Assembly: GCA_013540605.1 (NCBI GenBank)
Contig: JABVCK010000010.1
Coordinates: 1 to 60,923, forward strand
Length of the DNA stretch: 60,923 nt
DNA from: Bacillota bacterium
GTDB lineage: Bacteria > Bacillota > Clostridia > Ch29
Direction: 5' to 3'
Of this stretch, positions 1 to 58,685 are shown in pieces; the first letter of the stretch is position 1, and every line of letters starts with the position of its first letter. The position numbers and the translations under genes were made by a program. The notes below the pieces were generated by a model. That model made no database searches. It was not told the DNA's origin and saw only the letters and a program-made list of their open reading frames with translations.

Positions 1-1674
1 GCTGTGACTGCTATCGGAAGGTCTGCCGTATCAACGTCCATGTGGTCCGCAAGGGCTGTTACCAGCATGGAAATCCTGCCCGTATCGGTGCAGGTCCCGA
101 AACTGAGCACCGGCGGGATACCGAGGCTCTTGCATACCGCCTTCAGGCCGTCGCCGGCCAGTTCAACAGCATCCATATTGCAGAGGCCGGCAACCTCCAG
201 GGCATGGTTCCCGCAGCCTCCGCTGACCACCAGGATATCCCTCTTAATCAGCTCTTTGGTTACGTTTACCGTTACATAGTCCTGGGGGCCGTTCCTCAGA
301 GTCGAGCAGCTGGCAAGGGAAACCACTCCCTTGATGTTTCCCTTGGATATCACGTCAACCAGCGGGTCAAGGCTGTTTCCCAAAGCCTTAAGTACGGCTT
401 CGTTGGAAAAACCCGCCACCGCTTTCTGCTTTATTTGCGGCACAACAGGCCTCACTGCATCCTTTCTCTTTCTGAAGTTCTCAATGCCAAGCTCTATAAG
501 CCTGTTCGCTATGAAATCCGCCTCCGGCGGCTTATAGTCGTAAGCATACTTGAGACCGGGTATCCTCACTATATCGTTGACGCTTACAAGGGTTATCTGG
601 TACTTATCGGCGTATTGGCCTATTGCTGGAGGAGAACAGTTTTCCTCCATAGTGAACACGTCCACCGTCCCTGTTGCCAGCAGCGGTTCAATGGACAGCC
701 AGTTTCCCATTAGCCCTACAAAAACGTCATCCATTGCGAACCTTTGCACAAGCTCCTGACCCGTTTCAATGGAACCCACTATCCTGAGCCCCTTGGCCCC
801 GGCTGCCTTTGCACGGTCCTGTACCTCCTTCGTCCTGGCCTTAAGCAGGGTGGCAACCCCGGCCCAGGGCTGGTGGCCGTTGAATACTATATTCACGTAA
901 TCCGGGTCCATTATACCAAGGTTTACGTCAACCTCATGAGGCATAGGAGTTCCGAAGAGTATATCCTGAACCATTTTAAGTCCTATCTGCGCCGTGTATA
1001 TGGTGGCAAGACCGAGTCTCAGAGCTTTCTTTGCCAGGGATGTGTAATCACCGTCAACGTTTGTCAGACAGCTAGCAATGGCATCCTGAATTTCATAGAC
1101 GACCCCTGCCGGGTATATGGCCATTTCCCTCCATATCCTTTTCCTCTTCTGAGGGGCAAAGGCTTCCACCATCCTGTTGGGGCTGTCGAAATCCTTGTGC
1201 AGTTCTCCCTCGAGTAAATCCCCAAGCTGGATGGCGAGCTGATTTAGATCCTGATTTGTATCAATCCCAACCTTTTCGCACATCCACTTTAGTTTATCCG
1301 TATCGGTCAGTAAAAAGGGGGTTTTGCCCTCTCCCTGTTGATTTAAGACTCCTGAAGGCTTGGTATGCATGGTGGCCGTACGTCCCTGCCCCCATAATAT
1401 TTCTCATGAGTATATTCCGCATGGTCATTGCATCGGCTTCTATGCCGCAGACACCCCGTGATATTTCCGCCTTTTCACTAATCCGGCAGGGTCCGTGGGT
1501 ACACAGCTGACAGCTCAACCCCTGCAGGCAGAACTTGCATCTTATTTTCTCCTGGTCAATCCAGCGGTCAAAGGCATTGCTCAGGCCGTCCTCCCTTATC
1601 CTTTTAAGCATCTCTTCAACCGAGTCATGGTAACTGACGCGTCCTTCGGTTTTTTCCAGTATAGTCTCTGTCAT
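1..1674 (-). pseudogene. cooS: CooS-family carbon monoxide dehydrogenase homologue, frameshifted and cut by the window edge
   Basis: Reading leftwards from an ATG at 1674, the first 126 codons encode a CooS N-terminus with the cysteine pattern RCKFCLQGLSCQLCTHGPCRI-like (C-x2-C, then the C-x2-C-x4-C of cluster B). The frame closes at about 1294, but the next frame continues without stops to position 1 and is clearly the rest of CooS (HGHQPW-like His, and the conserved Cys segments ENCSPP, ASCSTL, GGCGNHAL, GTCTDTGR). One extra base in the homopolymer block 1311-1325 explains the break, so it may be a sequencing error. The C-terminus lies beyond the window. At the position of the second Cys of the usual CC-T-G-N-E motif (a cluster C ligand, Cys295 in C. 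hydrogenoformans CooS-II) this protein has Glu (codon 765-767), so ordinary CO oxidation is doubtful. RBS AAAGGAGG lies about 14 nt upstream, which is long. Confidence 0.85.
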
Positions 1675-1899
1675 AAAATCCGTAAAAACCTCCTTTTTGG
1701 TAATAGTTCAGTGTATCATGTGTAGTATTTCCTTCAACTGGGTAATTATGCTTTTCACATCATCCCTTTGGAAAACTGTATAACCCATGGAAATAATTAA
1801 AAATGTCCGCAGCAACAGGTGAAAAAAGTTTCAATTTAAGATAGTATAAAGTAAAGGCACCAGCGCTTATGCGTTGTGTATAAGATGGGAGGAATACAT

Positions 1900-7239: not shown

Positions 7240-7895
7240 ATCAATGCACCAGGTCTAAACCCTTCGCCTTTCAGGCGAAAAGCTTTGAGCATTGACAAGG
7301 CAGGAACTGTCATATAAGATAGCGCTGAGGTGAGAGAGGTGAAGGAATACAGAAAAAACAGTCATGCAGTATACGATATAAAGTACCATGTAATCTGGAC
7401 AACAAAGTACAGATATAAAGTACTTAAAGGGGAAATAGCCAAAAGGGCAAGAGACCTCATAATACAAGGGTGCGAGGCAAGAAACATAGTGATAATTAAA
7501 GGTAGTGTGGGAAAAGACCATATACATATACTAATATCATGCCCACCTACTATAGCCCCAGCGAAGATAATGCAGTATTTAAAAGGGAGATCATCAAGGA
7601 TGCTACAGGATGATTTTCCAGAACTTAAGAAAAGATACTGGGGGCAGCATTTGTGGTCAAGAGGATATTTTTGTGCGACAGTAGGGAGCGTAACAGAAGA
7701 GATGATAAAGCAGTATATAGAGAATCAGGGAAGGCAGGAGAATAATGATTTTAAAATTGAAGAATGATTTCAGTCGTAAATTTAAGCTTGCATTTAGCAG
7801 ATGGTCTTTAAGTGGGCTTAAGCCTAAAAAGCGAGTTTCACTCGCACAAAATTTATTTTGTAACCCACCTGCTTCAGCAGGTGGTAGTTTAGTAT
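7240..7895 (+). mobile_element. IS200-type insertion sequence (IS200/IS605 family, tnpA only)
   Basis: A single Y1 transposase gene is flanked by subterminal hairpins rather than inverted repeats, as expected for IS200. On the left, TTCGCCT and AGGCGAA form a hairpin at 7263-7279; on the right, GCGAG/CTCGC (about 7830-7844) and CCACCTG/CAGGTGG (about 7864-7883) form two. The sequence GTTTAGTAT occurs at both outer edges. The exact ends are approximate. It abuts the truncated recQ. Confidence 0.75.
7339..7767 (+). CDS. tnpA: IS200/IS605 family Y1 transposase TnpA
   Basis: A small HUH-type single-strand transposase of about 142 residues. It has the conserved VYDIKYHVIWTTKYR N-terminus, the HUH motif HIHILIS for metal binding, and a C-terminal helix with the catalytic tyrosine in QYIENQ. 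GTG 7339 has GAGGTGAG at good distance; GTG 7330 upstream would overlap the binding site. The length is normal and no key residue is missing, so the enzyme may be active. There is no tnpB/IscB partner. Confidence 0.88.
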   Translation: MKEYRKNSHAVYDIKYHVIWTTKYRYKVLKGEIAKRARDLIIQGCEARNIVIIKGSVGKDHIHILISCPPTIAPAKIMQYLKGRSSRMLQDDFPELKKRYWGQHLWSRGYFCATVGSVTEEMIKQYIENQGRQENNDFKIEE

Positions 7896-7904
7896 ACAGA
7901 AGAG

Positions 7905-9033
7905 TTTTCTATTGGATGATGATGATGACTCGGTGAGAATTGTCTGCGCAACTAATGCTTTTGGATTGGGTATTGATAAGCAGAATAGGTTTGTAATACA
8001 CTATAGCATTCCGAGCTGTCTGGAAGAATATTATCAGGAAGCAGGAAGAGCCCGAAGAGACGGGCAAAAGGCTTATTGCGTGTTATTATATGATAAGAAT
8101 GATGTTGACCTGCAAGATTACCTTATAAGAGAAAGTATGATGTCGCCGACATTAATCAATAAAGTGATTAAAGAAATTCTAAGGTCACAAAGCTTTGGCA
8201 GTTATTATTTTTTCAACATGAAGAGTTTTGAACTCAAACATGGAGTAGAAGACAATAAGATAAAGGCAAGCATTTATGCTCTGGAAAAATTAGGATTTAT
8301 AGACAGGCTGTTCAACATTCCTGCCGATATTAGACTAACGTATCATACTGTGCCGAAATTAACCAAAAATTCATTATTAAGATTTATGTATCCAAAAACA
8401 GAAATAAACACTCATATTTTTTGCAATACATATAATATCAACCCTGATCATTTTGTTAATAAGCTGAACAGGCTCGCTTTGACAAAGGAGATCAACACTA
8501 TGGAACAGAAAATACTGTTTTGATTTATCTAAAGACGGCGCCAGAATTTTTCGGCGGTTTAAGCATTAGTAAGAATGAAATACGAAAGGCTTTGCTTATA
8601 AAAGATAAAGAAATTAAACTTCAGGACATGCTTTTTTATTGTACACAAGCTTTGTGTAGGAGTAGTTATATTAGAAAATATTTTAATGAAAGTGCAGAAG
8701 AGAATTGCGGCTGTTGCGACCTTTGTGATAGAAAGTACAAAGAGTTTGTCTCTGGGTTGACAGAGGAGCCGCTAACGCCATTATCATCTATAGTAAAACT
8801 TCATGGAAATTATATAGACATGGGGTATGCCTGCTCAACGTATAGTTTTTCAAGAGGGGAACTAGAAACTATCATGAGCTTGGAAGGCTGTTGTATGATT
8901 TTAAATACAAAAATCGAAAAGAAAATGTAATTAAAAAACTAGTGTTTATAAACGATGGTTCAACCGATGAACTAATGGAGAATATTAAAAGAGACAGTGT
9001 TGAAATATATGGGGAAATCGGGAGGGAGTTATG
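7905..9033 (+). pseudogene. recQ: Truncated, multiply frameshifted RecQ-type helicase (possibly fused to a ComF-like domain)
   Basis: Only the C-terminal half survives. It starts in helicase lobe 2 (VCATNAFGLGIDK, then IHYSIP and YYQEAGRARRDGQ: motifs V and VI) directly after the IS200 right end. The frame is lost between about 8480 and 8520 and resumes with the RecQ zinc module (C-R-S-S-Y-I-R-K-Y-F and CGCCDLC). A second shift near 8850-8880 leads to a tail HELGRLLYDFKYKNR that resembles the start of a ComF-type phosphoribosyltransferase, ending at TAA 9031-9033. Lobe 1 with Walker A and DEAH is absent. The gene is dead; the IS insertion or a linked deletion probably removed its 5' half. Confidence 0.82.
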
Positions 9034-11928
9034 GCATTAATAGAGTGCCCTGAGTGCAAAAATAAAATATCCGATAAAGCCCATGCCTGCCCCCACTGCG
9101 GACTGCCGGGCAGCTTCTTTAATTCCTGCATTGATGCAGAACATGATAGCACTTTGGGTCACAGGGAATCTGCAGATAACGATACTCGAACAGCACATCC
9201 GCAGGACAGCCATGTAAAGACCCGAGGGGAATCTCATTTAAACAAAGATTACAATGTCATAAGGGATGTTTTAATATCCTTTGAGAAGGACTATCTGGAG
9301 TTTTTTTCTGAGGACAGGTACATTTCTAATTCCGAACAGAGAAAGCTTTACGCGCGGTATGAAGATTACCTCAATATGCTCAAAGACCCCCTTGTGGAGC
9401 AGTACATAAAAACCAATTCAACAAAACTGGGTTTGGATATCCGGCAGATGTTTCGTTTCATAAACCGTATGGAGCGTATGGCAGCAGATGTTGATTCCTT
9501 TAACGAGAAGTTTGTTTCCAGGAAAATGGTCGAGTATAAGAGCTATTTTGACAGCATGCTGAAGAGGGTTGACCCCAATGTCCTGTTGGACGACGAGCAG
9601 CGGCGGGCTGTGCTGATAGATGATGACTACTGTCTGCTTATAGCGGGTGCGGGCGCCGGCAAAACCACCACCATGGCCGCAAAGGTGAAGTATCTTGTTG
9701 ATAAATGTGGAGTATGTCCGGAAGACATTATAGTTATTTCGTATACTAACAAAGCGGTTGACGAGCTTCGGGAGCGTATCTGTGACAAACTGGGCATACC
9801 TGCGAAGGTAACTACATTTCATGCCTTCGGATATGAATTGCTTAAAAAAGCCAGCGCAACACCTCCACAGGTTAATCCACACGCATACAACATCATATTC
9901 GAAATGCTCGAAAAGAGCATATTCCACAACAAAGCCTTGATGAAAAAGTTAATACTTTTTTTCGGTTATTATTTTGATATACCGGAAACTGCTTTGCAGT
10001 TCAACTCTCTTGATGAGTTTCATCAATATAAGGCTGATATGACCTTTGAGACCATCAAGAGCAGTATAGGGGAGTATATCAGGACGATAACCAATAGACG
10101 TACCAAGCAGGCGCGTACCATTCAGGGTGAATACCTTCGGTCGGTGCAGGAGGTGCAGATCGCCAATTTCCTCTATCTGAACGGTATCGACTACGAGTAT
10201 GAAAAGCCTTACCCCTTTGCCGTCAATGGCGCCAGGAAGCAGTATACTCCTGATTTTTATATCGAACAGGGCGAAAACAAATGCTATATAGAGCATTTTG
10301 GCATAACCCAGTCCCACAGGAGCTACGTCTATTCACCACAGGACCTGGCAAAATACATTAGGGGCATAAACTACAAGAAGCGTTTGCACGAACAGTATAA
10401 TACGCCATTGATAACGACATGGGCAGTGTACAATGACGGAAGACATCTGATAGAGCATCTTGAGGAGGAACTCAGGCAGCGTGGGTTTATTCTTGCACCC
10501 CGGAGCGATGAAGAAGTTTACCGGAGGCTGGTTGATTCCAGCAAAGACAAATATATAGTAAAGCTTATACTGTTTATGCTGGAGTTTATTGAAAAATACA
10601 AGACAAATGGGTATACCGCTTCCGGATTTGAAGTACTGCGAAGCAAAACGGATAATGTAAGGAACAGATTGTTCATTGATATTGCCGAGGAGGTTTATGA
10701 TTATTACCAGGAAAAGCTGAAACAGAAAAATGAGATTGACTTTGCAGATATGATAAATGATGCAGAGAAGCTGTTGAGTGAGATGGAGGATTCCCATGTA
10801 AAGCTGACCTATAAATATATTATTATTGACGAGTTTCAGGATATTGCGCGTCAGAGGTTCAATCTGACCAAACGCCTTGCCGATATCACCGGGGCGAAGG
10901 TTGTAGCCGTGGGAGATGACTGGCAATCCATATATGCCTTTGCAGGGTCTGATATTACCTTGTTTACAAGATTTCTTGAACTGATGGGTACAGGCAGAGA
11001 ATTGCAGATAACGCATACCTATCGAAACTCGCAGGAATTGATAGACATTGCAGGCGGCTTCATTCAGAAGAATCAGACACAGATAAAAAAGCGGCTTATC
11101 TCGCCAAAAAGGCTGGATAACCCTATTATTATTCATACCTATGATGATTCGATTAAACCTGCCATGAACAGAAGTTCTGCGGTAGTTGAAGTCATTGGAA
11201 AGATAATAGAGGAGTATGGTATAAGGTCAAGCATTCTGCTCATAGGCCGGTACGGGTTCGACAGATATGTTTTGCTGAATTCAGGCGAGTTTGAAGAACT
11301 GCCGAAGAACAGATTAAGGTGTAAAGCGCATCCGAAAGCGGATATTACGTTTATGACCGCCCATAGTTCAAAGGGCTTGGGCTTTGACAATGTCGTCATT
11401 ATCAATATGGTTGATAGCAAATATGGATTCCCGTCGCAGATTGACAATGACCCCATTATGAAATTGATTACCTATGACGATAAGAGTATACCCTTTGCCG
11501 AGGAAAGGCGATTGTTCTATGTTGCGTTAACACGTACGAAGAACAGGGTATACATAGTTGCCCCGCTGAATAAACCATCGCGGTTTCTGGTGGAACTGGT
11601 AAAGGAATACAATCTGCAGTGTGACCCTGCCCTTAACCGTCAGATTGTAGAGCATTTCAGCCATCGGTGTCCCATTTGCGGTTTTCCGCTAAAATATGAA
11701 TTCAACAAGAATTACGGGCTGCACTTGTACATGTGTACGAATGAACCGGAGGTCTGTGATTTTATGACAAACGACAGGGTTGCAAAGGGCGATATTTTCA
11801 AATGCCCCGAGTGTGTGGATGGATATATGATTGTCAAGAAGAGGAAAAAAGACAGCGGTCGTTTCTACGGCTGCACCAACTACAGCGAATCCGGCATCGG
11901 CTGCAATAATATGAAGCCGCTGGAATAG
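9031..11928 (+). CDS. UvrD/HelD-like SF1 DNA helicase with zinc ribbons and an embedded nuclease-like domain
   Basis: A 965-residue superfamily 1 helicase. In order: N-terminal zinc ribbon (C6-x2-C and C20-x2-C), a helical region, Walker A AGAGAGKTTT (about 205-214), YTNKAVDEL, an insertion (about 355-480) with TPDF...CYIEHFG that looks like a PD-(D/E)XK nuclease core, the DEFQD box (about 600-604), GDDWQSIYAF, TAHSSKGLGFDNV, LFYVALTRTK, and two C-terminal topoisomerase-type zinc ribbons (CPICG...; CPECVDGYM...CTN). GGGAGGGAG precedes the ATG. Helicase-nuclease fusions of this type act in DNA repair or defence; which applies here is not shown. It overlaps the stop of the recQ remnant by 3 nt. 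Confidence 0.85.
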   Translation: MALIECPECKNKISDKAHACPHCGLPGSFFNSCIDAEHDSTLGHRESADNDTRTAHPQDSHVKTRGESHLNKDYNVIRDVLISFEKDYLEFFSEDRYISNSEQRKLYARYEDYLNMLKDPLVEQYIKTNSTKLGLDIRQMFRFINRMERMAADVDSFNEKFVSRKMVEYKSYFDSMLKRVDPNVLLDDEQRRAVLIDDDYCLLIAGAGAGKTTTMAAKVKYLVDKCGVCPEDIIVISYTNKAVDELRERICDKLGIPAKVTTFHAFGYELLKKASATPPQVNPHAYNIIFEMLEKSIFHNKALMKKLILFFGYYFDIPETALQFNSLDEFHQYKADMTFETIKSSIGEYIRTITNRRTKQARTIQGEYLRSVQEVQIANFLYLNGIDYEYEKPYPFAVNGARKQYTPDFYIEQGENKCYIEHFGITQSHRSYVYSPQDLAKYIRGINYKKRLHEQYNTPLITTWAVYNDGRHLIEHLEEELRQRGFILAPRSDEEVYRRLVDSSKDKYIVKLILFMLEFIEKYKTNGYTASGFEVLRSKTDNVRNRLFIDIAEEVYDYYQEKLKQKNEIDFADMINDAEKLLSEMEDSHVKLTYKYIIIDEFQDIARQRFNLTKRLADITGAKVVAVGDDWQSIYAFAGSDITLFTRFLELMGTGRELQITHTYRNSQELIDIAGGFIQKNQTQIKKRLISPKRLDNPIIIHTYDDSIKPAMNRSSAVVEVIGKIIEEYGIRSSILLIGRYGFDRYVLLNSGEFEELPKNRLRCKAHPKADITFMTAHSSKGLGFDNVVIINMVDSKYGFPSQIDNDPIMKLITYDDKSIPFAEERRLFYVALTRTKNRVYIVAPLNKPSRFLVELVKEYNLQCDPALNRQIVEHFSHRCPICGFPLKYEFNKNYGLHLYMCTNEPEVCDFMTNDRVAKGDIFKCPECVDGYMIVKKRKKDSGRFYGCTNYSESGIGCNNMKPLE

Positions 11929-57710: not shown

Positions 57711-58685
57711 ATGCTGAATATAAGGACAGACCTGGCTATTGAAGCCAGGGAGATGTACAGAGAAGAAAAACAGCAGGAGATTCCCGGAGTTAAGGTCGAT
57801 GTTTCGGAGGACAAGGGTGTAAAGGTGACAAGGGTGGAGGTGTTTGAAGAGGTAGGGGCTAGGATAATGGGCAAGCCGAAGGGCAATTACATAACCATTG
57901 AAGCAAAGGAGATCAAGAACAGAGACAGGGATGTCTATGAAGATACAAGCAGGACTGTTGCACAGGAACTTTCAAGGATCGCCCAGGTGGACGAGAACAG
58001 CACAACGCTGGTGGTGGGTCTGGGAAACTGGAACGTTACCCCGGACTCCCTCGGGCCAAAGGTAGTATCACATCTGATGGTGACCCGCCACATATTCGAA
58101 TACCTTCCCGACCAGGTGGATGAAGGCGTAACCCCTGTATGCGCAATCTCACCGGGGGTGCTGGGCATTACGGGCATCGAAACCGGAGAGATCATCGAGG
58201 GGCTGGTGGACAGGATAAAGCCGAGCAGGGTCATCGCAATAGACGCCTTGGCGTCGAGAAAACTGGACCGGATCAACACTACCATCCAGATATCCGATAC
58301 CGGCATCAGCCCGGGGTCTGGGGTGGGAAACAAGAGGAAAGAGCTGAGCAAGCAAACCCTCGGGGTCCCGGTTATTGCGGTGGGGGTGCCCACCGTGGTC
58401 GATGCCGCCACCATGGCAAGCGATACGATAGATATGATGATTGACGCCATGATAAAGCAGGCCCACCAAGGCCAGGAGTTCTTCGAGGTGTTGAAGAACA
58501 TGAAGAACGAAGACAAGTACAACCTGATCAGGGAGGTTTTGACGCCCTATGTCGGGAATCTCGTGGTAACCCCAAAGGAGATAGATGATATGATAAGGGA
58601 TATGTCGAAAATACTGGCCAACGGCCTGAACATATTTCTGCACCCATCCATCGGTCCCGATGACGTGGATAGATATATAAACTGA
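57711..58685 (+). CDS. gpr: Spore germination protease GPR
   Basis: About 324 residues. GPR degrades small acid-soluble spore proteins at germination. NIRTDLAIEAREMY marks the pro-region, TLVVGLGNWNVTPDSLGPKVVSHLMVTRH the core, and SPGVLGITGIETGEII and AIDALASRKLDRINTTIQISDTGI the conserved acidic residues. Its presence shows an endospore former. TGGAGGTG precedes ATG 57711. Expression in the forespore would be expected, but I cannot find a convincing sigmaF/G promoter. Confidence 0.95.
   Translation: MLNIRTDLAIEAREMYREEKQQEIPGVKVDVSEDKGVKVTRVEVFEEVGARIMGKPKGNYITIEAKEIKNRDRDVYEDTSRTVAQELSRIAQVDENSTTLVVGLGNWNVTPDSLGPKVVSHLMVTRHIFEYLPDQVDEGVTPVCAISPGVLGITGIETGEIIEGLVDRIKPSRVIAIDALASRKLDRINTTIQISDTGISPGSGVGNKRKELSKQTLGVPVIAVGVPTVVDAATMASDTIDMMIDAMIKQAHQGQEFFEVLKNMKNEDKYNLIREVLTPYVGNLVVTPKEIDDMIRDMSKILANGLNIFLHPSIGPDDVDRYIN

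Follow-up and report, generated by a model that had tools for sequence, protein, structure and literature searches.

The gene and its copy in this assembly

Positions 1-1674 of the window, that is, of the whole 60,923-nucleotide stretch that was analysed, encode a CooS-type protein on the minus strand, in two overlapping frames (1674..1294 and 1370..3). The N-terminal part of a CooS-V/D-1 protein occupies the first of these (P0002, 126 aa; 1294..1674, minus strand; match to the CooS-V structure 7b7q at E 1.5e-38), which starts in its native frame, with the start codon at 1674, and leaves that frame at ~1332. The remainder (P0001, 456 aa; 3..1370, minus strand; 7b7q match E 6e-188) reaches the contig start with no stop codon and lacks ~80 C-terminal amino acids; base 1 of the window is base 1 of contig C12, and the gene is truncated there. 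Against an alignment of four close relatives, a single extra base, either a frameshift or a sequencing error, is called at 1330..1332 (~1332, minus strand), where the window has CAGGGAGAGGG and the relatives have GGGGAGGG. The initial annotation, which described 1-1674 as a CooS homologue, was right about the type of protein but overlooked the two frames and the extra base near 1332 together with the contig truncation. Its suggestion that the gene be completed from flanking sequence failed for this assembly: the ~80 C-terminal codons, among them the equivalents of Glu556 and Lys558, were found in no other contig, in a search whose query gave matches in three related genomes.

The frameshifted and truncated copy in this assembly may be either a pseudogene or an assembly error. 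A gene split between two frames by a single extra base, on a contig that terminates within it, and with a degenerate counterpart in the related genome G034, could be one that has decayed, the frameshift being real and the protein not made in this organism. This reading has appreciable weight but is the less probable one, since dN/dS is 0.03-0.08 for both gene halves, on either side of the shift, much as among intact relatives (0.045), so that any decay would be very recent, and since every ligand and the promoter of this copy are intact. Such strong constraint on both sides of the shift suggests that the frameshift is a sequencing error or a very recent event. Decay would in any case concern this copy alone, and can be compatible with the explanation preferred below for the family.

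Further along the plus strand, the window holds an IS200-like transposase (Y1_Tnp; 7330-7767), the C-terminal half of a RecQ-type helicase spread over two frames (Helicase_C, then RecQ_Zn_bind; 7912-8930), which looks like a decayed recQ, and a UvrD-type helicase of 965 aa that carries a zinc ribbon at its N-terminus and a zinc finger of the topoisomerase type at its C-terminus (9031-11928).

Cluster ligands and family membership

The initial annotation had drawn attention to a Glu in place of an active-site Cys, and the full alignment bears it out. The codon at 765..767 (minus strand), within IVGSI[E]TGQEL, aligns when read 767-765 with CooS-V (7B7Q) Glu295 and, in true CODHs, with the second of the two Cys in GxCCTGNE, and the Glu at this cluster C position, that of Cys295, is kept in 80/80 relatives. 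The five Cys and one His that define cluster C of a canonical Ni,Fe-CODH are therefore not all present. The His and four other Cys ligands named in the same annotation are retained, and their codons could be located on the minus strand from the alignment and the 80 relatives: the His259 equivalent at 873..875, the Asn337-Cys338 equivalents at 636..641 (Cys338 codon 638-636), the Cys449 equivalent at 306..308, the Cys480 equivalent at 213..215 and the persulfide cysteine equivalent to Cys521 at 90..92. The Glu and all other cluster ligands within reach of the window are invariant across the 80 relatives, which come from public genomes.

Toward the N-terminus, the short C-x2-C motif was likewise correctly recognized; it lies at 1539-1528 (1528..1539, minus strand) and corresponds by alignment to Cys38/Cys41 of the type III D-cluster, a subunit-bridging [2Fe-2S] center (PMC6344411 Table 2). 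The longer type III signature C-x2-C-x5-C is present as well, with cysteines at 1539, 1530 and 1512 (minus strand), and the B-cluster cysteines C-x2-C-x4-C-x12-C, for a [4Fe-4S] cluster, align at 1447..1512 on the same strand (PMC9311411). Tyr takes the position of the acid-base His (GTYGHH in P0002), as it does in 80/80 relatives. The Lys and extra Glu typical of D-1 proteins fall in the missing C-terminus of the window copy; this Glu-x-Lys, corresponding to Glu494 and Lys of the hybrid cluster protein (HCP), is found in 79/80 relatives, the remaining one being truncated.

A search of the PDB returned CooS-V 7b7q as the closest solved structure (E 6e-188, with 61% identity where the two overlap), followed by true CODHs at E 3e-86. 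In the CODH/HCP tree that the initial annotation had called for, built from D-1 relatives, other clostridial CODHs, three PDB CODHs and HCPs, the window protein and CooS-V fall in one D-1 clade (support 100/99), apart from true CODHs and HCPs; several long branches are uncertain elsewhere in the tree, and this clade is unaffected by them. Over the part of the protein that the window covers, the signature matches structural group D-1 (Inoue 2019, PMC6344411), with the type III D-cluster, the H-E-C-C-C-C ligand row and Tyr for the acid-base His, and within the testable part no difference was found. Judged by its sequence, then, the window protein belongs to a side-branch of the CODH family that is already known, CooS-V / Ni-CODH structural group D-1. 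Beside D-1 in the tree, with weak support at that node, stands a branch of 708-728 aa CODH-like proteins (L118-L123) whose active-site segment reads GHVCEGQQL, with a single Cys before EGQQ in comparison with CCTGNE.

The likeness to CooS-V of Carboxydothermus hydrogenoformans extends from the overall identity and the shared clade to Glu 295 and the His, Cys, B- and D-cluster ligands; the window copy differs in its frameshift and truncation, and its genome differs in having no other CODH, against four true CODHs in C. hydrogenoformans. With HCP (hydroxylamine reductase) it shares the hybrid-cluster Glu and His ligands and the cluster chemistry to be expected from them, but it has a CooS fold with a D-cluster, matches HCP very weakly in sequence and belongs to a separate clade. 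Against the HCP model TIGR01703 it scores 38 bits, far below the cut-off of 360.8 (an intact relative scores 46 bits). The NCBIfam model TIGR01702, an equivalog for the CODH catalytic subunit, places D-1 proteins far above its cut-off (scored on P0001 and on an intact relative, L086:1165-3084). That name is misleading for D-1 proteins and amounts to a systematic misannotation, the prototype having no CO activity.

Distribution, predicted upstream promoter and co-occurrence with spore genes

A D-1 gene, called at an identity of 61% or more, is present in 26/393 class members sampled at a completeness of at least 90%. Two of the 26 copies are incomplete, one cut by a contig end (G004) and one degenerate with stops (G034); the latter (L093, G034:C9:10024-10698) has two stops, and G034 still has spore genes. 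The window genome carries only two Prismane-family genes, the D-1 gene and its own HCP (C35:90773-92398). Other CODH matches are absent from 19/26 clostridial carriers, the window genome included; all candidates were scored in ten carriers, with the same result, and four candidates in the others, so that a second CODH may have escaped notice in a few of them. Across 80 loci no gene family is widely found next to D-1, in agreement with published work in which 64% of clade D genes were solitary. A genomic-context study of 2026 saw no clear neighbor pattern, and proposed an auxiliary role next to active CODHs.

The carriers have sporulation in common. SpoIVA is present in 24/26 of them, and the two without it carry genes for SASP, gpr and SpoVT, which together gives spore markers in 26/26. 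Among genomes with other CODHs, 18/62 are without SpoIVA and one of those 18 has gpr, leaving spore markers in 45/62; a Fisher test of the difference between the two groups gives p = 0.002, a value that is indicative only, since the genomes are non-independent and some of them, a few, contain D-1 as well as another CODH. The gene for the spore germination protease, gpr, also lies on this contig, at 57735-58676 (plus strand).

Upstream of the D-1 gene a forespore promoter is predicted by motif, pattern and matrix analyses, with a -35 element GCATA at 1747..1751 and a -10 element GGAAATACTA at 1723..1732 (both minus strand). A de novo motif search of 71 non-redundant D-1 upstream regions returned a single element, GGnnAnAnT, which in most cases precedes the start codon by 35-60 bases and has a log-likelihood of 202, compared with at most 69 in shuffles. 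A -35 of the form RYATW, which played no part in finding the -10 motif, stands 13, 14 or 15 nt from it at 48/62 sites, while 18 other spacings total 24. The strict -35/-10 pattern occurs before 32/80 D-1 genes, 7/524 neighboring genes and 6/800 shuffles (Fisher 1e-24), a contrast that is partly circular because the pattern was tuned on the same D-1 sites. Around a quarter of D-1 loci have a weak site or none, in part because of uncertain start codons.

An independent control was drawn from the gpr, spoVT and SASP upstream regions of 25 D-1 carriers, on which alone a two-block model, seeded with the literature consensus, was trained. It converged on a -35 of tGtATA, similar to that of D-1 and at the same spacing, ranked the window site at the 99.6th percentile among neighboring genes, and separated D-1 genes from neighbors moderately (AUC 0.77). 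In the opposite direction, a model trained on D-1 sites with the window left out (-35 Tg.ATA, -10 tGGacAtACTtA) recognized spoVT (AUC 0.87) and gpr (0.77), and SASP only at 0.60. Scanned over both strands of the 60.9-kb window, this model found its best match in the site before this gene, at 17.7 bits, with the next at 15.1. The moderate separation and the poor recognition of SASP suggest that the D-1 promoter is a distinct sub-type, with a -10 ending in ..ACT versus ..AAT. It would thus share the -35/-10 architecture and spacing of gpr, spoVT and SASP promoters in the clostridial forespore (sigma F/sigma G) regulon, and differ from them in the -10 variant GGnnAnACT.

The promoter consensus of C. 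difficile is very similar to that of B. subtilis, and in C. difficile a G kept upstream of the -10, as seen in sigma F promoters, together with an A not kept downstream of it, is characteristic of sigma F as opposed to sigma G (PMC3789822). In D-1 promoters the upstream G is conserved and the downstream A is not, and the window site (GCATA-N14-GGAAATACTA) has the same pattern. On these features the D-1 promoter would be of the forespore sigma F/G type, and closer to sigma F. Matches to a vegetative sigma A promoter upstream of the gene were weak (9 of 12 only), and this candidate was rejected; an Rfam search of the same region gave no match to an RNA element. Scored with the forespore-trained matrix, the HCP gene of the same genome reaches 3.6 bits, short of a good forespore site.

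Sigma B, F and G have related, GG-rich -10 sequences, and the -35 of sigma B is GTTTWA. This kinship lends something to the reading that D-1 is a hybrid-cluster protein for vegetative nitrosative or oxidative stress with no special link to sporulation, the element being a sigma B-like promoter or an operator, and nitrosative stress is indeed the setting in which HCP acts. Moreover, CD0174, another CooS of C. difficile, lies in an operon with two oxidoreductases and is strongly induced by sigma B (PMC7494833). Such a role is nevertheless distinctly unlikely for D-1, whose -35 is RYATA, unlike that of sigma B, and is spaced as in the gpr, spoVT and SASP promoters of the same genomes, and whose carriers are all sporulators, unlike the carriers of other CODHs.

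Cluster chemistry and proposed role

The chemistry to be expected of these proteins is best known from CooS-V of C. hydrogenoformans (PDB 7B7Q), which contains a [4Fe-3S-nO] hybrid cluster without Ni, catalyzes neither CO oxidation nor CO2 reduction, and reduces hydroxylamine slowly, with a kcat of 0.13 per s (Jeoung 2022, PMC9311411). Redox restructuring of the cluster was shown by others for this prototype, and its potentials are ~300 mV lower than those of E. coli HCP, which would favor a low-potential donor. The initial annotation proposed a hybrid-type Fe-S-O cluster and no action on CO, as in CooS-V, and the alignment, the tree and the data on the prototype speak for that proposal; the hybrid-cluster interpretation of the CooS-V type is right, and already published. 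The reading that D-1 proteins are active or residual CO dehydrogenases, the Glu tolerating a Ni,Fe cluster, has behind it the CooS fold and family and an NCBIfam name (anaerobic CODH catalytic subunit) that an intact relative earns above cut-off, but is scarcely credible given that exchanging Cys295 for Glu leaves CODH-II Ni-deficient and without activity on CO, that CooS-V itself has neither Ni nor CO activity (PMC9311411), that the relatives carry the hybrid-cluster Glu-x-Lys, and that HCP is the only other gene of its family in the window genome.

There is good reason to think that the window gene specifies a CooS-V-type hybrid-cluster reductase, most likely made in the forespore of spore-forming Firmicutes. 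The protein would be a homodimeric iron-sulfur protein in which Glu for Cys295 leads the active site to be assembled as a nickel-free [4Fe-3S-nO] hybrid cluster, and it would work as a low-potential reductase, not a CO dehydrogenase; hydroxylamine-like compounds and other small N/O oxidants are candidate substrates. In spore-forming Firmicutes the stand-alone gene would be transcribed from its forespore promoter (sigma F/G type), which would most likely place the protein in the forespore; there, or at germination, it may give the spore or the germinating cell redox or nitrosative/oxidative protection. It seems probable, if a little less so than for the reductase itself, that CooS-V (D-1) in spore-forming Firmicutes is a forespore-specific, Ni-free and CO-independent branch of the CODH/HCP family, and usually the sole CODH-like gene. 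Because archaea without spores also have D-1 or clade D proteins (PMC6344411, PMC13056359), a spore role cannot cover the whole group.

The accessible literature on sporulation regulons held nothing relevant on CODH or CooS, and neither is mentioned in the papers on the C. difficile sigma regulons; in C. tyrobutyricum an 'anaerobic CODH', its clade not given, decreases in late culture (PMC4916380). New here are the predicted forespore-type promoter, the sole-CODH distribution, the lack of conserved neighbors and the co-occurrence of D-1 with spore genes. The forespore promoter was not found in the freely readable literature searched, and prior notice is possible.

That D-1 genes have a conserved promoter of forespore type and often stand in genomes with no other CODH argues for a part in sporulation rather than for assistance to active CODHs. 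In C. autoethanogenum, growing cells are described as little affected when the clade D CODH is deleted (Liew 2016, as summarized in PMC13056359), which is consistent with a role at the sporulation stage; such a role, if true, would explain that result. CooS-V/D-1 proteins are widespread and annotated as CO dehydrogenases, an annotation that wrongly implies CO metabolism in many clostridia.
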